Of a DNA stretch of 64,000 nt, positions 52,219-64,000 are shown in pieces. Source of the stretch: an uncultured Coriobacteriaceae bacterium (GTDB lineage Bacteria; Actinomycetota; Coriobacteriia; Coriobacteriales; Atopobiaceae); the NCBI GenBank assembly GCA_902786015.1, contig CADAAU010000001.1, positions 124,001-188,000 on the forward strand, read 5' to 3'. Made by a program: the position numbers and the translations under genes. Position 1 is the stretch's first letter; each line of letters starts with the position of its first letter. Under the pieces are notes generated by a model that was not told the DNA's origin, searched no databases, and saw only the letters and a list, made by a program, of their open reading frames with translations.

Positions 52219-52285
52219 ACCAGTATCGACCTAGCCCTCTCCATATGTCAGAATGTTTAATGTAGGGGATGTGCGGGGAGGTTGT

Positions 52286-52639
52286 ATGGCCCAACAGCTC
52301 TTGGTCGATTTATATGGGTGTGACCCCGCGTTGCTCGATGACCCGGCGAAGGTGTCGGCAGCAGCGCAGTCGATCGTGCGCAGCATTGGTGCCGAGGTGG
52401 TGGACGAGCTCGTCCACAAGTTCGAGCCCGTGGGCGTAACCTATGTTGCGATTATAACGACCTCGCATGTGTCCATACACACGTGGCCCGAATTACGGTA
52501 TGCCGCACTCGACGTGTTTTCGTGTTCTGACGGAGTGCCGGCGGCGATCGCACAAGCGGTGGGCAGCGCGTTCGGAGCGACCAGCAGTTGCGTAAAGAGC
52601 GTGACCAGAGAAATTGGAGGAGGCAATTATGAGGTATAA
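52286..52639 (+). CDS. speD: S-adenosylmethionine decarboxylase proenzyme-like protein
   Basis: 117 residues from ATG 52286 (GGGGAGG upstream). Self-cleavage region ITTSHVSIHTWPE: Ser60 would become the pyruvoyl group, His65 and Cys80 (LDVFSC) match the catalytic His and Cys of the short bacterial SpeD/SpeH class. The residue before the cleavage serine is Thr rather than the usual Glu, which could affect processing. It overlaps the DUF4178 gene, and an aminopropyltransferase follows, so the cassette likely makes spermidine or a related polyamine. Confidence 0.85.
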   Translation: MAQQLLVDLYGCDPALLDDPAKVSAAAQSIVRSIGAEVVDELVHKFEPVGVTYVAIITTSHVSIHTWPELRYAALDVFSCSDGVPAAIAQAVGSAFGATSSCVKSVTREIGGGNYEV

Positions 52640-53882
52640 CGTAGGAAACGACCTGAGCGTCCAAGGCGTGCGTTATCTGATACTCGGTTCCATTCTCTAC
52701 AAGGACAACGCCCACGGGGACGAGTGGGAGGAGTATAGGCTCCGCAATCACGACGACAGGAGCGAGTCTTGGCTCTCCATCGACATGGGAAACCAAGAGT
52801 ACGAGATGTCCTTTATGATAGGTGCGTCCAAGGCTCCTGACGGGTTTAAGCTGGTAGACTCCGGAACCCAGGTGGTGAGGGGACGCGCGGGCAACGTTGA
52901 CGTCGACATGGGCGAGACGGCTCAGTACGAGACTTGGGAGGATGCCTCCGGGGAACACACCTATTCGGTTGAGCGCTGGAGCGATGAGGTGGAGTATTCC
53001 CGGGGAATGTATGTTGCCCTTGACGACATCAAAGACCTCGGACCTTCTCCTGACGCAAAGAAGGTGAAGTCCTCATCTTCGGGCGTGGGTGGACTCATCA
53101 TTGCCATGTTGGTGGCCGTCGCAATCGGGATGTCGGCGCTATTCTTTGGGGAACGCAACAACACCGACGTGGCCAAGCTGCTTAATGTGAGCGGCGAGTA
53201 CGTACTCGTAAAGGAGGCTTCCACCTCGAATGACGTGTTGGTCTACGCCACTGCGAAGTCGGTCGACGACGCGAGCAAAGACATCATCAACAAGCTCGAG
53301 GGAGAGGTGCAGTCAGTCAAGGAGGACGAGGACGGAACGACGGTCGCGCTGCTTACCGGCAACGAATACATATTGGTCTACGAAGATGTCGGCAAAGACG
53401 ACTTTGACGACGGGGATGACACGCAGGCGAGCAGCGAAGAGCAGACGAAGGCCCCAAATACGGGAGAGACGAAGACTGGGGCAGAGGCACAGGACGAAGA
53501 TGAGGAGGAGGCAAGCGCGGCAGAAGACACGGCAACCAGCAATGACGTGAGCGCACAGTCTGTCTCGGAGTTGATTTCTAACGCAGCTAGTCGAACTTTG
53601 GTGCAAGTTACGAGTCGCCGTCATGCCTATACGACCGACAAGAGACCATATCACTCCAGGTATCTTACCTATCGATGGTATCGCACCTTCTATCGCGCGG
53701 TGGCATATGAGGCCGACACAAAGTCGTACTCGAAAGACGAGTCCTCGTATAGTAACTACAATGGCGAGACGTCAGTGGATAGCACCTCTACCAGCGCCTA
53801 CGAAACATACGCGAGGAGCATCCGGCAACAGAGCGCCGATGCAAAGAAGACATCTGGTGGCGGGACCTCAAGTGGCAAGTAG
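52629..53882 (+). CDS. DUF4178 membrane protein
   Basis: 417 residues from ATG 52629 (GGAGGAGG at 52617-52624), overlapping speD by 11 bases. Residues about 1-140 form a DUF4178 domain (VQGVRYLILGSILYKD, EWEEYRLRN, WLSIDMGNQEYEMSF). One membrane helix follows (about 155-177, GLIIAMLVAVAIGMSALFF), then a soluble domain with an acidic linker and a Ser/Tyr/Arg-rich C-terminal part (YLTYRWYRTFYRAVAYEAD). DUF4178 genes recur beside speD and membrane spermidine synthases in Actinobacteria. Its own activity is unknown. Confidence 0.8.
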   Translation: MRYNVGNDLSVQGVRYLILGSILYKDNAHGDEWEEYRLRNHDDRSESWLSIDMGNQEYEMSFMIGASKAPDGFKLVDSGTQVVRGRAGNVDVDMGETAQYETWEDASGEHTYSVERWSDEVEYSRGMYVALDDIKDLGPSPDAKKVKSSSSGVGGLIIAMLVAVAIGMSALFFGERNNTDVAKLLNVSGEYVLVKEASTSNDVLVYATAKSVDDASKDIINKLEGEVQSVKEDEDGTTVALLTGNEYILVYEDVGKDDFDDGDDTQASSEEQTKAPNTGETKTGAEAQDEDEEEASAAEDTATSNDVSAQSVSELISNAASRTLVQVTSRRHAYTTDKRPYHSRYLTYRWYRTFYRAVAYEADTKSYSKDESSYSNYNGETSVDSTSTSAYETYARSIRQQSADAKKTSGGGTSSGK

Positions 53883-55419
53883 GCACGCGGGATCTACGGA
53901 GGAGCGGGAGGGACTCATAGAGTATCGTCCGCTCCTCTTTGTGGTGCTCATCATATCTGGATGCTCCATGTGCTACGAGCTCATCATAAGCGCGTTGAGC
54001 ACGTATCTTTTGGGCAACAGCGTACTGCAGTATTCGGTGACCATCGGACTGTACATGGCGGCGATGGGCCTAGGCGCCTATCTTTCCAAGTTCGTGACTC
54101 GTCGGCTGTTCAGGCGCTTCGCACAAATCGAGCTGGCGGTAGGACTTTTGGGGGGAACGAGCTCGCTCGTGCTGTTCCTAGCGCACCTGTACCTGCATGG
54201 GTTCAGGATCCTCATGTATGCCCTCGTGATTCTTATCGGCATATTGGTGGGAGCCGAAATCCCCATACTCACACGCATCGTGGAGGAAGACAAGAGGCAC
54301 CTGCGTCTTGCGCTCTCGTCAATATTTTCCATCGACTACATGGGAGGGCTCATCGGCGCGATTGCGTTTCCGCTGCTCCTGTTGCCTCAGTTGGGTTTTT
54401 TTGCCACGTCGTTTTTGTGCGGGCTCATCAATTGCATTGCCGCCTCCATCGTGTTGTGGCGCTACGGTCGGCGCATCGAGGGCGTGGCGTCGCTCAGAGT
54501 CGTGGCAGTGGTGCTCATGGTGGTTATGGCTGTGGGTATGGTGGCGTCCGATCGTCTTTCTACCATGGTTGAGGGCGGGCTTTACCGCGATCACGTTATT
54601 GTCTCGGAGCAGACTCCCTACCAAAAGATCGTGCTCACGCGACGTGTCGATGACTTGCGTCTGTTTTTGGACGGAAACATCCAGTTCTGTTCTCGTGACG
54701 AATATCGATATCACGAGGCGCTCGTTCACGTTCCTATGGCGATGGCGCCCACGCACTCGCATGTCCTCGTGCTCGGCGGAGGTGACGGTCTTGCCGCACG
54801 CGAGATCCTTAAGTACGACGACGTGAGTGACATTACGATTGTCGATATCGACCCGAGCATGACGCAGCTGTGTGCTCAAGACGAGGCCATCGTACGTCTA
54901 AACGAGGGCTCGCTTGTGGACCCACGAGTGAGGGTATGCAACGAGGATGCCAAGCAGTTCTTGCAAGAGAGTCATGATGGGTATGACGTTGTGATAATAG
55001 ACCTGCCTGACCCCAACAGTGAGGCCCTCAACCAGCTCTACACCGATTCGTTCTATCGCCTCGTCGGGAACCATCTTGTGGACGGCGGGGTATTCGTCAC
55101 CCAGTCGACGAGTCCCTATTTTGCGCGCGAAGCGTTTTGGTGCATCAATCAGACGATTTCGTCGGAAGGATTCCACGTCTTGCCCTACCATCTCAATGTG
55201 CCTTCGTTTGGGGAGTGGGGCTTCAATGTCGCGTCGCGGACGGAGCTACACCCCGACGTCAAGATAACGGTGCCGACCTCGTACCTCACGAGTCAAAACG
55301 CTCCGGCGCTCTTTGCGTTCGGTATGGACGAGTCAAAGCCTTCCCACATGAGTAAAAACACACTCAATCACCCCGTGCTCATCGAGTACTACAACAAGGC
55401 GCTTGTTGAATGGGGATAG
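53872..55419 (+). CDS. Membrane-fused polyamine aminopropyltransferase (SpeE-like)
   Basis: About 515 residues from GTG 53872, overlapping the DUF4178 gene by 11 bases; earlier in-frame starts lie deep in that gene. Seven membrane helices (about 20-230: CYELIISALSTYLLGNSVLQ, AAMGLGAYLSKFV, EIPILTRIVEEDK) precede a spermidine-synthase domain (about 245-515). The SAM-type fold motif is VLVLGGGDGLAAREIL (about 296-311), then TIVDIDPSM, IIDLPDPNSEALNQLYTDSFY and TQSTSPYF. The asparagine-containing DLPDPN loop replaces the D-x-x-D-P of soluble SpeE. Transfers aminopropyl groups from decarboxylated SAM, which the speD product would supply. Confidence 0.87.
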   Translation: MASRHAGSTEEREGLIEYRPLLFVVLIISGCSMCYELIISALSTYLLGNSVLQYSVTIGLYMAAMGLGAYLSKFVTRRLFRRFAQIELAVGLLGGTSSLVLFLAHLYLHGFRILMYALVILIGILVGAEIPILTRIVEEDKRHLRLALSSIFSIDYMGGLIGAIAFPLLLLPQLGFFATSFLCGLINCIAASIVLWRYGRRIEGVASLRVVAVVLMVVMAVGMVASDRLSTMVEGGLYRDHVIVSEQTPYQKIVLTRRVDDLRLFLDGNIQFCSRDEYRYHEALVHVPMAMAPTHSHVLVLGGGDGLAAREILKYDDVSDITIVDIDPSMTQLCAQDEAIVRLNEGSLVDPRVRVCNEDAKQFLQESHDGYDVVIIDLPDPNSEALNQLYTDSFYRLVGNHLVDGGVFVTQSTSPYFAREAFWCINQTISSEGFHVLPYHLNVPSFGEWGFNVASRTELHPDVKITVPTSYLTSQNAPALFAFGMDESKPSHMSKNTLNHPVLIEYYNKALVEWG

Positions 55420-56987: not shown

Positions 56988-57809
56988 ATGGCGCATACCG
57001 CGATGTTCTCGGACGCAGGGGTGCGATACCACACAAATCAGGATGCCGCCTGCATTCAGGTGGCGCGCACATGCCTGGGAGAGGCTGCCCTGCTTGCGGT
57101 GTGCGACGGGGTCGGTGGACTTGCGTGGGGAGAGCTCGCGAGCGCTACGGTCGTGGATGGGTTCTGCAGATGGTTTAGAAAGAAGCTGCCCAAGGAGCTG
57201 CCAGGACTGATGCGGGGAGGCCTGGCAGATGGTCGAGGCGTAGAGGCAGAGTGGCGTGTCTTGCTCTCGCGTCTGAACGAGGTGCTTCTCTCGCACGGTC
57301 AGGGAGCCGGCCATCTGCTCGGGACGTGCGTGTCTGCCGTGTTTGTGCTGGGCGGCGACTATGTGGCCGTACAGGTGGGAGACGGGAGGGTCCTCAAATT
57401 AGGGCGTGGTTTCTATGAACAGATAAGTGAGGACCAAACGCTCTTGGCGCACAAGCTACGAACCAGGACGATCGCAAGCGAGCGGGATGCGCCTGCCACT
57501 GACGCAAACACCATCTTGCAGGCCGTTGGCTCGCAAAGGGATCTGCGACCCGTCTTCTACCACGGTAGCGTTGAGCCGGACGAGTTGTTGGTCGTCTGCT
57601 GCGATGGTATCTGGCGCAAAGTCGGAAATACTGGCATTTACAACATGTTTGGTCGCGTGGACTTCTGTGACGAAGGCCAGCTTGATGGTGTATGCCAAGA
57701 ACTGGCGCGGCATGCCTTGTCTTTGGGCGAGACGGACAACATGACGGTAGCTTGCCTTTCTGGTGACCTTGAGCGCTCTCGAAGGGGGGATGCGCGATGC
57801 GACCGGTAG
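56988..57809 (+). CDS. PP2C-family Ser/Thr protein phosphatase
   Basis: 273 residues; GGGAGGGGG before ATG 56988. PP2C metal-site motifs in order: DAGVRYHTNQDA, AVCDGVGGLAWGELAS, VGDGRVLKLG, VVCCDGIW and ETDNMTVACL. An insertion-free, compact, cytoplasmic domain with no membrane segment. It overlaps the kinase gene by 13 bases, the classic pairing in which it reverses kinase phosphorylation. It heads the four-gene module that ends with the giant Ig-like protein. Confidence 0.92.
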   Translation: MAHTAMFSDAGVRYHTNQDAACIQVARTCLGEAALLAVCDGVGGLAWGELASATVVDGFCRWFRKKLPKELPGLMRGGLADGRGVEAEWRVLLSRLNEVLLSHGQGAGHLLGTCVSAVFVLGGDYVAVQVGDGRVLKLGRGFYEQISEDQTLLAHKLRTRTIASERDAPATDANTILQAVGSQRDLRPVFYHGSVEPDELLVVCCDGIWRKVGNTGIYNMFGRVDFCDEGQLDGVCQELARHALSLGETDNMTVACLSGDLERSRRGDARCDR

Positions 57810-59773
57810 CGATTGGCAGTGTCATTGATGACAAGTACGAGCTGGTAGGAAAAATCGGTCGCGGTGGCATGTCGATCGTGTGGCTCGGTAAGGACGTGCG
57901 CCTTGGCAAGATGTGGGCCATCAAGGAAGTGCTTCCCAGTGAGGGTGGAGAGCGTGGTCGTCTGTTGAGGAAGGCCATCGTGGATGAGGCAAACTTCATG
58001 AAGCGCCTCGACCATCCGGCAATACCGCGCATTGTGGACATCATAGACATGGGCACCGAACTCTTTGTGGTGATGGACTATGTAAACGGGCAATCGCTGG
58101 GCAGGCTTCTGTCCAATCGGAAGAAGCCATTTGCGCAGGAAGACGTGGTCCGTTGGGGCATAGAGCTATGCGATGTGCTGTCCTACCTTCACGCCTATAC
58201 GACTTCGGAGGGCGAACGCCACCAGATCGTATACAGGGACATGAAGCCCGCCAATCTCGTACTCCGTGACGACGGGTCGGTTCGTCTTATTGACTTTGGC
58301 GTATGCTGGGAGCGCGTTGGAGGAGAAAACAACGACGGATTGATCGTTGGGACTCCAGGTTATGCAGCGCCTGAGCAGCTGCCCGCTACCGCTCATCCCA
58401 CGCGACTTTCTCCCGAAGTGGTCATCGATGGTCGCGTCGACGTGTATTCGCTCGGTGCGACGCTCTATAGCTTGGTCACGGGCCACGTTCCAAAGATGAG
58501 CCATGGCAAAGACGGCGTGCGTACCGTGTCGTTCGTTATGCAACCCATTCGAGAGTGGGACCCCAAGCTCTCGGAGGGACTCGAGCACGTTATTGGAAGA
58601 GCGACGCAAAAGGACCCCTCCAATCGTTATCAGACCATTGAGGAGATGCGCTACGACCTCGAGCACTACGTGCAGCTGACGAGCGAGCATCGAAAAAAGC
58701 AAATGCGCAAGGTCACGGAGTTCAGACATTGGGTAGCCGCGGCGGCGACATGCTTTCTTTGCGGGGCGGCATTTGTGGGTCTCTCGATCATTACGCGGGC
58801 AACCACCTATGAGGCGTGTATGCGCGAGGCGAGCATCGCCTCCAAGGAGGCGGGAGCCGACGGGACTCCTTCTGATGCAGAAGCTCTCTATTGTACGGCG
58901 ATTGAGACTGACCCAACACATGTGGAACCGTTCGAATCGCTGCTCCATGACGTGTACGAGGCGGACAACGTTTTTACTCCTGACGAGGAGGCGCGTTGGA
59001 GCGCGATCTTTCGTGCCCATGAGGCGGTCATACGTCCGAACGCTGGTTATGCCCGTCTGTGCTTCGAGGCGGGCGTGTGCTACCTGTGCTTCTATGGCGC
59101 GGATGCGGCGGAGTCGGATGGCTCCGCATGGGGGCAAGCGGCCATCTTGAATGCGAGCAAGTCTCGGGCGTGGTTCGAGCGTGTATGTCGTACTTGCGAC
59201 GTGTCGTGGGAGAGGCAAGCTGATGGCGATCCTCTGTCTATGACTTTTGAGAAGGGCCTGCAGACTATCGATGACGCCGATGTGCGCGCCGCCGACGCCT
59301 ACCTGCGCATCGCAGAGTTCAACGACATAAAGCAGCGTGCCGCTCGTGAGGGCAGAGCGGCCGGGGACGAGTATCAGAGGTTTTGGAACGCCCTCTGTCA
59401 GACGGTGCGAACCGCCCCGTCTTGTATAGAGGGGGTCAGGATTCGGCTGTATCTCATTGCGTTCGAGGCGATTGCCGCAGATGACGTCCTGGGCGGCATC
59501 TATCGAAAGGCACTTGAAGACGGACGAGTCGACGAGTCGTATGACGAGGTGCGTTCCCTGCTCGATTCGGTGCTGGAAGGCGTTCATGACGATGGGTTGC
59601 GCGGGTTCGTAGAGGCTCCGGGAAACGCCAACGTGTATGGACCGATTTATCGATACATCGTCTCCAACGAGGGCCTCGCATACCAAAACGTTGTGCAGAC
59701 ATACGAGAATCCCGTCGCCCGTACAGATATGGCGACCCAGCAATCCGGACGAGAGGAGCAAGCATGGAACTGA
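57797..59773 (+). CDS. Transmembrane Ser/Thr protein kinase with Cys-rich extracytoplasmic domain
   Basis: 658 residues. Kinase domain about 13-300: GRGGMSIVW loop, Lys43 in WAIKEV, catalytic VYRDMKPANL (Asp148, Lys150; Tyr in place of the usual His), DFG Asp166, GTPGYAAPEQ and DVYSLGATLYSLVTG. One membrane helix (about 313-333, VAAAATCFLCGAAFVGLSII). The outer ~320 residues are helical, TPR-like and rich in cysteine (RLCFEAGVCYLCFYG, RVCRTCDVSW), with no PASTA repeats. Kinase identity is firm; the ligand sensed by the outer domain is unknown. Overlaps both neighbours. Confidence 0.92.
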   Translation: MRPVAIGSVIDDKYELVGKIGRGGMSIVWLGKDVRLGKMWAIKEVLPSEGGERGRLLRKAIVDEANFMKRLDHPAIPRIVDIIDMGTELFVVMDYVNGQSLGRLLSNRKKPFAQEDVVRWGIELCDVLSYLHAYTTSEGERHQIVYRDMKPANLVLRDDGSVRLIDFGVCWERVGGENNDGLIVGTPGYAAPEQLPATAHPTRLSPEVVIDGRVDVYSLGATLYSLVTGHVPKMSHGKDGVRTVSFVMQPIREWDPKLSEGLEHVIGRATQKDPSNRYQTIEEMRYDLEHYVQLTSEHRKKQMRKVTEFRHWVAAAATCFLCGAAFVGLSIITRATTYEACMREASIASKEAGADGTPSDAEALYCTAIETDPTHVEPFESLLHDVYEADNVFTPDEEARWSAIFRAHEAVIRPNAGYARLCFEAGVCYLCFYGADAAESDGSAWGQAAILNASKSRAWFERVCRTCDVSWERQADGDPLSMTFEKGLQTIDDADVRAADAYLRIAEFNDIKQRAAREGRAAGDEYQRFWNALCQTVRTAPSCIEGVRIRLYLIAFEAIAADDVLGGIYRKALEDGRVDESYDEVRSLLDSVLEGVHDDGLRGFVEAPGNANVYGPIYRYIVSNEGLAYQNVVQTYENPVARTDMATQQSGREEQAWN

Positions 59774-60225
59774 CGACCCAACGACTCTTTCTTATGGCTG
59801 CGGCAATTGCGTTCGCGGCGGGTGCGGCGTTAGCGGTAATGGCGCTGCGATGCTATGTGCGTTACGACATACGAGGCGTTCGCGACGACCTATCCGGGCG
59901 CATGCGTCAGCGCATGCTGGCAGAACAGCACGTGTACGCCACGCTCCTCGGGGGGGCGAATGCAGACGATGCCGCTCACGTATGTCTGGGCGCTTACAAC
60001 CAAGAGCAAAGACGAGGAGCCGATGACGCGGCAATGAGTAAGTCGGGCGACGAGGAGACGCTTTGCCATCTGGGACATGACGGGGCTGGTGTTGACGACG
60101 AGGCGCCTACAGAGATCTCAGCTTTGGGAGACGGGGGCCTTTCGGGCGACTTCGAGTTGATCACAGACGTTTGCGTCACGCATGCGGAAGGCATCGATTG
60201 CGGGGAGTGGGGTGACTGTGCATGA
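59764..60225 (+). CDS. Small single-pass membrane protein, function unknown
   Basis: 153 residues; the start overlaps the kinase by ten bases. One N-terminal helix (about 8-28, LFLMAAAIAFAAGAALAVMAL), then a basic stretch with LSGRMRQRMLAEQ and an acidic, Gly-rich tail. No catalytic motif seen. Tight coupling to the kinase and to the Ig-like gene (ATGA overlap) suggests it works with them, perhaps as an adaptor or kinase substrate (inference). Confidence 0.75.
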   Translation: MELTTQRLFLMAAAIAFAAGAALAVMALRCYVRYDIRGVRDDLSGRMRQRMLAEQHVYATLLGGANADDAAHVCLGAYNQEQRRGADDAAMSKSGDEETLCHLGHDGAGVDDEAPTEISALGDGGLSGDFELITDVCVTHAEGIDCGEWGDCA

Positions 60226-63200
60226 CGTGGTGGGACCTTCGCCAATATGCTCCCTTGGGCAAGACCGTCCTTTCGGGGCTCCTTTCGGTTACGACCGTGG
60301 GGCTTCTTACGCCCCAGTCGATTCCGCGTGCTTGGGTCATCGGATCCGCAGCAGACGAGCCTGTGGCAGATGACATGCCGCAGGTAGACGATGATGATAC
60401 CTGGAACTTGCTTTGGGAGGGAGCGCCTCTCCTCGGAGGTGAGGAGCTCGTATCTGGAACGCGCGAGCATGCGGCGTGCTACCAGAGTGGCGAGTTGCAC
60501 GTGGCTTGGCGTGGGGCAGATGTCGCGGGCGAATACCGCGTGTCATTGGGGTTGGACGAGGAGTCGTTCGACCTTGTGGCAGCTGAGCGTACGGGTGAAC
60601 AAGGCGTCTATGAGGCGTGCTTCGTCCTGGAGGACGGCCTTTACCATCGGCTTGCCCTGCATGTCGAAGACGCTGGTGGAAACATGCTGGAGTCGACGTT
60701 CGAGCACGTTCTGGTGACTACCCGTCAGCCAAGGTATCGGGCGCTCTGGGACATGGCGGGGGATGGGAGCGTTGTCGACGGCACTACCTACTATTCCGAG
60801 CACCGTACGCTGACCATTTCCGTGGAAGATCCATGTCCTGGTGATGACCTGTCCATCGTGGCGAATGGGGAGCGGCTTGTCGCACAGAGGACAGAGGACA
60901 CGCAGACATACACGCTCGAGTGCGCGCGTGACGGGAAGTACGAAGTCGAGCTTGAGGGCGCGGACGAGCTTGGTCGCGTTCCCGACCGTGCCTCGGATGG
61001 TCTACCGCTGCCCATGAGTTTTGTGGTGGACACGGCGTCTCCTACGGTGCGCGTGCTCTATGACGGTGCTGAGTTGTCTGACGACAGCTTGCATGAGGGT
61101 TGCCTTTATGTTTCAAACAGGCCTCGCGTGACCATTGAGGTGTGCGACGACAACCTTGACCTCTCGTCGTTGCGGATTGCCGGGCGGGCATTCGACACGT
61201 GGGAGCGCAAGGGGAACTCGGCTTTTCTCGACCTGCCAGACGACATGCCTCTTGACACGGCGCTTCGCGTCACGGGATCTGACCTTGCGGGAAATATGCT
61301 TCCTGACGGGCACTGGGTGGCTCCCGTTGTCATTGACAAAGAGGCGCCGAGCGTGGAAGTGGTAGAGCCCATGAATCCGACGGCGAGCGCCACGAGTTCG
61401 GAAGGGACGGCGCTTTTCTTTGCGGGGGAGTCGTCGATTGAGCTTCGTGTCATAGACAACGAAGGGCTTGCCTCCATCGAGGTGGAGCCGAGTGATGCGT
61501 GCTCCGTATCTCCTGAGCATATTGTACCCGGTACGTGCAGCGAACACATCTCGATTCGCTTGCTCGAAGGAGAAGAGTTTGGTCGTGACGTGACGGTGAG
61601 GGTGTGCGATCTTGCGGGAAACTGGTGCACATGGTCCATCGATGCGTGGGGCGAAGCGAGCGAGGCCGGCGAGAGCCGTCCGTCCCAAAACGCCGCTGTG
61701 TGCCAGGACGGCACCGGTGCTCCGGTCTTTCCCCTCTTTCTCTTGAGCGATGCAACTCCTCCCGAGGTGAGGGTCGAAGGAGTCGAGGATGGATGTGCCT
61801 ACGACGAATGCCCCCTCGTGCGGGTCTCCATTGACGAGGAGAGCTCCGAACATCTTGTGGCGTACGAGGGTCCGGCATTTGCCGACCAATGTGTCCTCGC
61901 CGTGTTCGAAGGGGGTCTGCATGACGAGAGGCCCACTATCCGTGAGGAAGTGTCATTGTACGTGCGGGACTTTACGCCCAATGCCCTCACGGGACGTTGG
62001 GAGGCTACTACGCGCGTGCCCAAAGAGGGAACCTATGCGTTGCGAGCTCAGCTTGTCGACGTTGCTGGTAATGCCTCGGCACTTTGGGAGTGCCATGTGG
62101 TGGTCGACACAATGCCGCCGGCTTGCAGCGTTTCCTTCGTGCGTGATGACGTGCACACCGAGGAACATGAGGACGAGTTCTATCGCACTCCGCGAAAGGC
62201 GATCGTCCGCATCCAAGAACGAAACTGGGACGATTTGCGGCAACTGGAAGTTCGTGCGGTCTCGGAGGATGGCACTACGCGCGCACTTGGGGCAAATGAC
62301 TTTCGAGCCGAGGATGACGATTGGCATGTATGTGAGGTCGAATTTGAGCATGAGGGCGAGTATCGGCTCCTGTGTGATGCAACCGACGTTGCCGGAAACG
62401 TCATGGATCCATGGCATGGTCCCTCATTCGTGGTAGACCTGACCGATCCCGTGGTCGAGGTCACCTACGACGGGGAGGAACTGACGAAGGGCAGGTTTGC
62501 GCGAACCCCCCGTACGGCAACCATCAAGGTCATCGAGCGAAACTGGGGCGGTGACGAAAACTGCACCGTGGAAGTTGCGATGAGAAACGCGGCATCCTCG
62601 AGCGTTCCACAACCTTCTGCCTGGCGTGTTGTAGACTCCATGCGGCCTGACGAACATGTGTGTAGTGTTGCGCTCGACCGTGACGGTGTCTATGTGCTGC
62701 GCGTGAACGGTCGCGACCGAGCAATGCGCTCCCTGCGATGTGGGAGCCATGAGGGCTTTGTCGACGAGTTTGTGGTAGACACGCAGGCTCCATCCGTATC
62801 TATAGACTTCCTGCCTTCTTCATATACCGAGCACGATGGAATCATGTACCTGAATCACGCCCTCGAGGTGCCTGTGAGCGTGCAAGACCGCAACCTTGAC
62901 GCGGAGCAGAGCACGCTCGGGTGGGACGGTACGAGCATAACTTGCGGCGGGGTTGACGCATGGGAAGTCGAGGAGTCCGACCAGACTGGCATGGTGACGC
63001 GAAGCCGAACCCTAAGGTACGGCCATGGATTCCATACGTCACCGTCAATGGCTGCGAAAGATCTTGCGGGCAACGAAACGGTGCAGGTGGGGAGACCCTT
63101 TGTAGTGGACCTCGAGGCTCCAAGGCTTGTCTCGGTCTCGAGTACGGACATGCCAGCGGCTGCATACGATTGCGAGACACCAGAGGGGAAGGGGGAGCTG

Positions 63201-64000
63201 CAAGTCTTCGATCGTCCGACTCGTCTGGTGTTTGAAGTCGAGGACCAATACCTTCTTGATGGAGCAAGCATCTACGATCCGGATGGCCAATACCGTCTGG
63301 AACAAAACGTTGGGCGGGGAAATGCAAAAGGCAGCGCGGTTGTCAGCCTTGTGGATGGAACGGACTCTCACGAGAGAGAGTCCTATGACAGGGACATCGT
63401 GTTCAGCGTGGCCGACATTGCGGGCAACCGACATAGCTGGACGCTTGACAAACGGGGCAACGTGGTCGCCGACACGGTTTCGCAGGGGATAGAACCCGGT
63501 CTCAACGGCACGGACTCCAACCTGCTTGCCCTCATGCAGGACACGATTGCTCCCACGATAGAGGTAAAGGGAGTCGAACCTGGCATTGTTACGAACCAAA
63601 CCCAAGTTGCGGACGTGAACGTACACGAATTCAACTTCTCGTTCCTGCGGCTGCTGAGGCCACGCGACGTGGCGGTTCGCGTCACGTGTCGTGATGCGAC
63701 GCCGGAGGGGAGAACTCGTGTCGAGGAATTTGACGTCTCGAGGTTCGAGGGGACGGATCCAGCATGGTCGATGACCAAGGAGTTTGCAGCGGACGGAAAC
63801 TATGCGATGGAGGCCTTCTTTACCGATGTGGCTGGACACCCGTCCAATCGCGTGCAGATTGGCGAGTTTACCGTAGACAAGACTCCTCCCGTCATAGAGG
63901 TGAGCTGGGACCACGGACTCGATGAGGCACGGGCGCATGGAGGTCGGCGATATTTTGCAACGACGAGGTGCGCGACCGTAGTCGTGCACGAGCACAACTT
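60222..64000 (+). CDS. Giant Ig-like-repeat surface protein (3' truncated by window)
   Basis: At least 1259 residues; the frame is open from ATG 60222 to the window end. A hydrophobic stretch VLSGLLSVTTVGLLT (about 16-30) looks like a signal peptide. About nine Ig-like modules of ~95-140 residues follow, each opened by a linker of the type VVDTASPTVRV or VDLTDPVVEVTYDG (near 61022, 61330, 61744, 62102, 62433, 62774, 63103, 63536, 63872). Modules carry a V-x-(E/D)-x-N-(W/L/F) turn (IQERNW, VIERNW, VQDRNL, VHEFNF) and end in D-(L/V/I)-AGN. Probably a surface adhesin or stalk. No sorting signal is visible in the window. Confidence 0.85.
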   Translation, partial: MTWWDLRQYAPLGKTVLSGLLSVTTVGLLTPQSIPRAWVIGSAADEPVADDMPQVDDDDTWNLLWEGAPLLGGEELVSGTREHAACYQSGELHVAWRGADVAGEYRVSLGLDEESFDLVAAERTGEQGVYEACFVLEDGLYHRLALHVEDAGGNMLESTFEHVLVTTRQPRYRALWDMAGDGSVVDGTTYYSEHRTLTISVEDPCPGDDLSIVANGERLVAQRTEDTQTYTLECARDGKYEVELEGADELGRVPDRASDGLPLPMSFVVDTASPTVRVLYDGAELSDDSLHEGCLYVSNRPRVTIEVCDDNLDLSSLRIAGRAFDTWERKGNSAFLDLPDDMPLDTALRVTGSDLAGNMLPDGHWVAPVVIDKEAPSVEVVEPMNPTASATSSEGTALFFAGESSIELRVIDNEGLASIEVEPSDACSVSPEHIVPGTCSEHISIRLLEGEEFGRDVTVRVCDLAGNWCTWSIDAWGEASEAGESRPSQNAAVCQDGTGAPVFPLFLLSDATPPEVRVEGVEDGCAYDECPLVRVSIDEESSEHLVAYEGPAFADQCVLAVFEGGLHDERPTIREEVSLYVRDFTPNALTGRWEATTRVPKEGTYALRAQLVDVAGNASALWECHVVVDTMPPACSVSFVRDDVHTEEHEDEFYRTPRKAIVRIQERNWDDLRQLEVRAVSEDGTTRALGANDFRAEDDDWHVCEVEFEHEGEYRLLCDATDVAGNVMDPWHGPSFVVDLTDPVVEVTYDGEELTKGRFARTPRTATIKVIERNWGGDENCTVEVAMRNAASSSVPQPSAWRVVDSMRPDEHVCSVALDRDGVYVLRVNGRDRAMRSLRCGSHEGFVDEFVVDTQAPSVSIDFLPSSYTEHDGIMYLNHALEVPVSVQDRNLDAEQSTLGWDGTSITCGGVDAWEVEESDQTGMVTRSRTLRYGHGFHTSPSMAAKDLAGNETVQVGRPFVVDLEAPRLVSVSSTDMPAAAYDCETPEGKGELQVFDRPTRLVFEVEDQYLLDGASIYDPDGQYRLEQNVGRGNAKGSAVVSLVDGTDSHERESYDRDIVFSVADIAGNRHSWTLDKRGNVVADTVSQGIEPGLNGTDSNLLALMQDTIAPTIEVKGVEPGIVTNQTQVADVNVHEFNFSFLRLLRPRDVAVRVTCRDATPEGRTRVEEFDVSRFEGTDPAWSMTKEFAADGNYAMEAFFTDVAGHPSNRVQIGEFTVDKTPPVIEVSWDHGLDEARAHGGRRYFATTRCATVVVHEHN

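Follow-up and report, generated by a model that had tools for sequence, protein, structure and literature searches.

A kinase, phosphatase and small membrane protein operon in a predicted type VII secretion locus of Coriobacteriia

Overview

The analysed window, a stretch of 64,000 nucleotides of a rumen-type Coriobacteriia genome (G000:C1:124001-188000), ends in four overlapping genes encoding a phosphatase (TsxF), a kinase (TsxD), a small membrane protein (TsxH) and an Ig-like protein (TsxI). The explanation that we consider probable is a joint one: the genes F-D-H-I belong to a type VII secretion locus of the T7SSd/T7SSe type, and together with FHA domains the kinase and the phosphatase would form a docking switch. 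The family comparison covered about 100 relatives.

The window and its downstream region

All four genes lie on the plus strand. TsxF (56988..57809, 273 aa) is a phosphatase of the PP2C (PPM) type with matches to PP2C_2 (6.3e-8) and to Stp1-like proteins (8.4e-30). TsxD (57797..59773, 658 aa) is a membrane Ser/Thr kinase (Pkinase, 1.3e-40). TsxH (59764..60225, 153 aa) is an ORF for a small single-TM protein that matches no Pfam family and contains candidate Thr sites. TsxI (60222..64000) is a multi-Ig-like protein (Big_13, 6e-20; Big_3_3) that runs past the window edge. The recomputed overlaps of 13, 10 and 4 bp agree with the ORF list and bear out the earlier note, in which the four genes were taken for one translational unit. 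Upstream, at 52253-55419, three successive ORFs were recognised by reading: the first resembles adenosylmethionine decarboxylase, the second encodes a TM protein and the third resembles a membrane spermidine synthase.

The adjacent sequence was analysed in the segment L007 (C1:180000-199999), where the window coordinate equals the L007 coordinate plus 55999. The genes that follow TsxI are on the same plus strand. A WXG100 protein (L007:9533-9820; 71.1 bits at G000:C1:189541-189795) is encoded between TsxI and EssC. The latter (L007:9857-14458) has an N-terminal FHA domain and FtsK_SpoIIIE domains, and scores 785 bits against TIGR03928 (cut-off 778.4). A gene for a DUF4176 protein separates EssC from a second WXG100-like gene (L007:14837-15169), a candidate A2 whose PF06013 match (23.7 bits, E 1.6e-4) is under the cut-off of 27.3. 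The next ORF (L007:15015-16520; 501 aa, the start is probably later) encodes a product whose C-terminus is rich in glycine and for which no informative family was found. Its homologues adjoin other type VII loci (L075, L076, L102, L112), and the product is a candidate type VII substrate. It is followed by genes for a 201-aa protein, also with no informative family, another DUF4176 protein, a YukD-like protein of 91 aa (B; L007:17391-17666, family-level match to PF08817), and a DUF6382-FHA protein (TsxJ; end at L007:18679). In the latter, FHA is matched at 5e-11 and DUF6382 at 25.9 bits, just under the cut-off of 26.7; DUF6382 is matched in 12 of the 18 members of the TsxJ family. For B, PF08817 is matched by 8 of the 19 aligned family members (best 3.6e-7). 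The 91-aa protein itself, searched alone, had no match in Pfam, and a sequence search of B against PDB gave nothing better than E 0.64.

Thus the extended contig contains the end of the Ig-like gene, the secretion genes and an FHA gene, and the sequence to the right, which could have assigned the Ig-like gene to an unrelated operon, proved to be the same operon. According to the earlier note, no described system matched. This does not hold: WXG100 and EssC come next and the gene set fits T7SSd/T7SSe as published (PMC11217815), hence a matching system is described. By its gene content, the locus belongs with the type VII systems described as T7SSd and T7SSe.

The published classification assigns the genes A, C, D, H and I to T7SSd (Olsenella, Bifidobacterium), and T7SSe of Bacillota adds A2, B, F, J and K (PMC11217815). 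TsdI/TseI are Ig-like, TsdH/TseH are short single-TM proteins, TsdD/TseD are membrane kinases, TseF is a phosphatase and TseK has a single TM helix and a short stretch in the cytoplasm (Garrett, Higginson and Palmer 2024, PMC11217815); the ubiquitin-like B is stated to be missing from all T7SSd loci (PMC11217815). In the locus considered here the T7SSd set A, C, D, H, I is complete, and the T7SSe-type phosphatase TseF and DUF6382-FHA protein TseJ are both found. Homologues of B occur in 22 Coriobacteriia loci, and related loci reside in MAGs named Coriobacteriaceae or Coriobacteriales (e.g. L133, RUG14419). Since B in Coriobacteriia loci matches YukD, the absence of B from T7SSd and the restriction of T7SSe to Bacillota fail as a phylum rule. 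By sequence comparison, Actinomycetota too possess the T7SSe gene set, which is at odds with the published division by phylum.

Conservation of the gene order

In a survey of 298 Coriobacteriia genomes, the TsxD family was delimited by scores above 160 bits, ordinary PknB-type matches being at most 130. It is present in 25 genomes, and EssC (1e-50 or better) in 28. Gene neighbourhoods were compared in 40 loci and in 80 named loci from a genome scan. In 89 related kinase loci the sequence extends far enough to either side. Of these, 70 have the phosphatase directly upstream of the kinase and 86 have TsxH directly downstream, and the Ig-like protein follows in 72, so that the arrangement is not a matter of chance. 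The complete order F-D-H-I is observed in 56 of these 89 loci; conservation of the four-gene order in relatives had been set as a test in the earlier note. In nine of the 28 EssC-positive Coriobacteriia genomes the EssC loci lack the TsxD family (L083, L097, L115-L120); these are possibly other type VII subtypes.

The kinase TsxD

TsxD consists of a kinase domain (residues about 14-280), a TM helix (about 310-335) and an extracytoplasmic TPR-like helical domain (about 337-658). The catalytic residues Lys43, Asp148, Asn153 and Asp166 are invariant in 66 TsxD sequences from two phyla. AlphaFold models are confident for the whole protein and for the outer domain (mean pLDDT 91 and 92.5), and structure comparison places the kinase-domain fold closest to PknB. 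The first 50 positions in a profile search with the outer domain match TPR proteins to 1e-33. The structural matches are loose, the best Z of 10.7 not being distinctive for a helical repeat. The outer part is thus predicted to be a TPR-like helical repeat.

The protein contains no PASTA repeats; Pfam sees the kinase domain alone, and the NF033483 score is 184.6 bits against a cut-off of 450. With no PASTA and a TPR-like outer domain, identity as a PASTA muropeptide sensor was rejected. The earlier description of the outer part as helical and different from PASTA stands, whereas "Cys-rich" describes a trait of this species that the family does not share: there are nine Cys residues here, two to seven in the eleven nearest relatives tabulated, and 1.4 on average over the other 56.

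Homology of TsxD to EssB likewise gained no support. PF10140 (EssB/YukC) has no match in the genome (the B. subtilis control was positive), and comparison of the outer domain by Foldseek and VIA-align produced TPR-type repeats, with no EssB/YukC chain among the matches listed. A different proposal sees TsxD as the equivalent of the EssB/YukC pseudokinase with an active kinase domain, that is, a structural part of the secretion system in which kinase activity is secondary. We regard it as possible, if doubtful. The topology is shared, comprising a cytoplasmic kinase fold, one TM helix and a helical outer domain (PMC9600267, PMC11217815); the FHA domains of T7SSb EssC bind the EssB pseudokinase domain (PMC11217815), and EssB/YukC is itself missing from this genome. 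On the other hand, the outer domain is TPR-like with no EssB chain among its listed matches, the catalytic residues are invariant, and the module occurs without EssC.

The phosphatase, the FHA domains and the Ig-like protein

The metal-binding motifs of TsxF (RxxNQD, DGVGG, GDGR, DG, DN) appear intact by reading. The phosphothreonine-binding FHA residues (R, S, H, N) are kept in EssC and TsxJ of this genome and of most relatives.

The complete TsxI has 1756 aa, compared to the more than 1259 residues given in the earlier note, and ends at L007:9493, corresponding to window coordinate 65492. It has a signal-like hydrophobic N-terminus, and a C-terminal TM helix followed by a short basic tail. 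No LPXTG was found in the complete protein, and a sortase-linked fibre was rejected for this reason. Since the TM helix is present and LPXTG is missing, TsxI looks like a membrane-anchored, wall-spanning protein. Phospho-signalling had been linked earlier to a giant surface fibre: the link to a large surface protein is supported, but TsxI does not look like a sortase-linked fibre. Two genomes of the same genus have two kinase modules each (L077/L076 in G014, L079/L078 in G012), and one of the Ig-like proteins has about 3150 aa.

Threonine motifs in the TsxH tails

Proteins of the TsxH family have one N-terminal TM helix and a tail with a median length of 146 residues. The charge after the helix is of the positive-inside type (+2.3 vs -0.4), and therefore the tail is likely to be cytoplasmic. 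In 90 non-redundant tails the motif T-x-[VIL]-L has 297 sites, compared to 17.9 +/- 4.4 (maximum 32) in shuffled sequences; as shuffling destroys tandem repeats, this count partly reflects duplication. The number of tails in which the motif occurs, 69 of 90 against 15.7 in the shuffles, is unaffected by this. When Thr is replaced by Ser, Gly, Ala, Tyr or Asn, there is no excess over the shuffles in the same tails. The preceding residue is usually Glu, Gly or Asp (E-T-T-V-L, G-T-E-V-L, A-T-T-L-L).

In 78 other N-terminal-TM proteins of these loci the motif was observed 16 times with 15.0 expected, and it is not enriched in their WXG100 (A), B, EssC (C) and Ig-like (I) proteins. Weaker signals are seen in TsxD (a slight 1.4x), in TsxF (1.95x) and in the TsxJ linkers beside the FHA domain (3.8x). 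The C-terminal tail of the PP2C phosphatase in L077 carries the Thr motif DLPTMVEGD twice, and the linkers of DUF6382-FHA and trypsin-FHA proteins bear GETTVLG and GTTVLV (L094-L095, L077, L090, L092).

The ligand preference of FHA domains follows the pT+3 rule (PMC5549992). The sites read from the sequences, acidic, restricted to Thr and with Leu at +3, suit phosphorylation by a Ser/Thr kinase as well as binding by an FHA domain. There is no association between the number of TsxH motifs and an FHA gene in the sampled flank (p = 0.99; the flanks are limited).

The TsxH tail in the window has just two acidic candidate Thr residues, T99 (GDEETL) and T116 (DDEAPTEI), neither with Leu at +3. The strict motif is represented by the juxtamembrane T60 alone (ATLLGG), which has no acidic context, and the closest relatives keep one acidic Thr site. 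With sites so few and not strict, this species may have a weaker switch or one of another kind. The C-terminal box of this protein is FELITDVCVTHAEG; a conserved C-terminal box of the IHT-D/E-E type, F-x-I-x-K-D-I-x-I-x-H-T-D/E-E-x-I, is found in 44 of the 90 tails (L148, L160, L182 and others).

Modules without EssC

EssC is missing in six of the 25 TsxD-bearing Coriobacteriia genomes and in 18 of the 50 genomes reached via named loci. These 24 entries correspond to 22 distinct genomes, two being shared, and 21 of the 24 also have no WXG100 match. Intact operons amid housekeeping genes were observed in Konateibacter massiliensis, Thomasclavelia cocleata DSM 1551, Falcatimonas sp. MSJ-15 and Fusibacillus kribbianus isolates. 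The FHA partners at EssC-less modules are DUF6382-FHA or trypsin-like-FHA proteins; around L087, L089, L178, L191 and L192 the stretch read contains no FHA gene. Fusions of a trypsin-like protease domain to FHA lie beside EssC-less modules in L090 (4004-5749) and L092 (6784-8865), and are a possible alternative effector there.

In the kinase tree, the window's genus clusters with EssC-less modules (SH-aLRT 99), apart from the T7SSd kinases of Olsenella and Bifidobacterium, and orphan (EssC-less) TsxD sequences are scattered over several places. In the EssC tree, the sister of the same genus is an Olsenella sequence. A kinase tree constrained to the grouping of the EssC tree is worse by 395 units of lnL (p-AU 1e-4); this p-value is indicative only, as the groups were chosen after the trees had been seen. 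Thus the unit of the kinase, TsxH and the Ig-like protein is separable from EssC, and the two trees conflict. We read the conflict, on phylogenetic grounds, as module exchange; the alternative is differential loss.

These observations bear on the view that D, H and I (with F and J) are obligate parts of the T7SSd/e machine, and that genomes without EssC have lost it recently or have gaps in their assemblies. These genes are indeed core components in the published scheme (PMC11217815), EssC is present in most TsxD-bearing genomes (19 of 25 and 32 of 50), and D-H-I adjoins A-C throughout the window's genus. Still, this view is unlikely, given the 22 distinct EssC-less genomes, isolates among them, with intact operons amid unrelated genes, the general lack of WXG100 in the same entries, the rejection of the EssC grouping by the kinase tree for the post hoc group, and the several tree positions of orphan TsxD.

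Proposed mechanism

As EssC-less modules exist, the phospho-switch may be regarded as a general envelope module that is coupled to type VII secretion here and is not a part of it by origin. A broader proposition is that F-D-H-I is a widespread stand-alone system for signalling at the envelope in Actinomycetota and Bacillota, with a kinase that senses through its TPR domain, the multi-site TsxH tail as an FHA-docking scaffold and a wall-spanning Ig-like protein, recruited more than once to type VII secretion and acting through other FHA effectors (DUF6382-FHA, trypsin-FHA, zinc-ribbon-FHA) elsewhere; we consider the case for and against it evenly balanced. It is very unlikely that TsxD and TsxF are a cell-wall homeostasis switch similar to PrkC/PknB-PrpC, with general substrates and placed beside type VII genes by operon convenience: although the kinase fold is closest to PknB, TsxF resembles Stp1 and orphan four-gene operons sit among housekeeping genes, TsxD has no PASTA repeats, and the adjacency of D and H in 86 of 89 loci and the Thr-only motif, found mainly in H and J, indicate dedicated substrates.

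The docking switch could operate as follows. The TPR-like outer domain of TsxD would detect a surface partner, for which TsxI and the cell wall are plausible candidates. The kinase would then phosphorylate Thr residues of the TsxH tail on the cytoplasmic side, and also of the TsxJ linker. The FHA domains of TsxJ and of the EssC N-terminus might dock on the multiply phosphorylated tail, and docking would recruit or switch the ATPase or another effector at the membrane, with TsxF resetting the switch. TsxI, its C-terminal helix in the membrane, may span the wall as a surface element by analogy with EsaA in T7SSb. In genomes without EssC the switch would act via other FHA proteins, e.g. trypsin-FHA or zinc-ribbon-FHA. 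It is more likely that assembly at the membrane is controlled than the export or assembly of TsxI, which the earlier note had suggested.

The T-x-[VIL]-L repeats suggest a specific role for TsxH, which would then connect the kinase and the phosphatase with the conserved FHA domain of EssC, a link missing so far. The EssC-less module changes what counts as a component of type VII secretion, and it indicates that common gut Bacillota and Coriobacteriia have a signalling system without the type VII machine.

Comparison with known systems

The locus resembles T7SSd of Actinomycetota (Olsenella uli, Bifidobacterium) in having WXG100, EssC with a phosphothreonine-competent FHA domain, the kinase TsdD and the small TM protein TsdH. 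The large Ig-like TsdI has an N-terminal signal and a C-terminal TM helix, as TsxI does, and EssC of the window's genus groups with Olsenella EssC. However, T7SSd lacks, by the wording or the implication of its description, the phosphatase F, the YukD-like B, the DUF6382-FHA protein J and a second WXG100 gene, whereas F, B, J and a second WXG100-like gene are present here, and TsxD belongs to a different clade from the Olsenella and Bifidobacterium kinases.

Like T7SSe, the locus has B, F and J in addition to the T7SSd genes, together with a candidate A2 whose match is below the cut-off. In contrast to the present Coriobacteriia locus, T7SSe has been reported from Bacillota only, and the gene order also differs: F-D-H-I-A-C-...-B-J here and C-B-A-A2-J-F-D-H-I in L159, L153 and L171. 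The EssB/YukC pseudokinase of T7SSb is missing here.

The nearest tested analogies for the proposed switch would be PpkA-TssL-Fha and GarA. In the type VI secretion system, the kinase PpkA, the phosphatase PppA and the FHA reader of Fha-TssL act on Thr of a membrane component, and this activates the secretion ATPase complex (PMC3953482). This is a likeness in the manner of working; the machine is unrelated, and a single TssL Thr contrasts with the repeated sites in the disordered TsxH tail. In the ETTS-FHA switch of GarA/OdhI, Thr sites beside the FHA domain are phosphorylated by a Ser/Thr kinase (PMC5448819), and similarly the TsxJ linkers have sites of the ETTVLG type ahead of the FHA domain. 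However, GarA/OdhI is a metabolic regulator, whereas TsxH, a membrane protein in its own right, has many sites.

The definition of T7SSd and T7SSe in 2024 relied on gene neighbourhoods; it assigned no function to TsxH and suggested phospho-control in general terms (PMC11217815). In the literature beyond that paper no description of the module of the kinase, TsxH and the Ig-like protein was found. Compared to the published account, the present analysis adds the T7SSe set in Actinomycetota, the separable module, and the TsxH tails with T-x-[VIL]-L sites.
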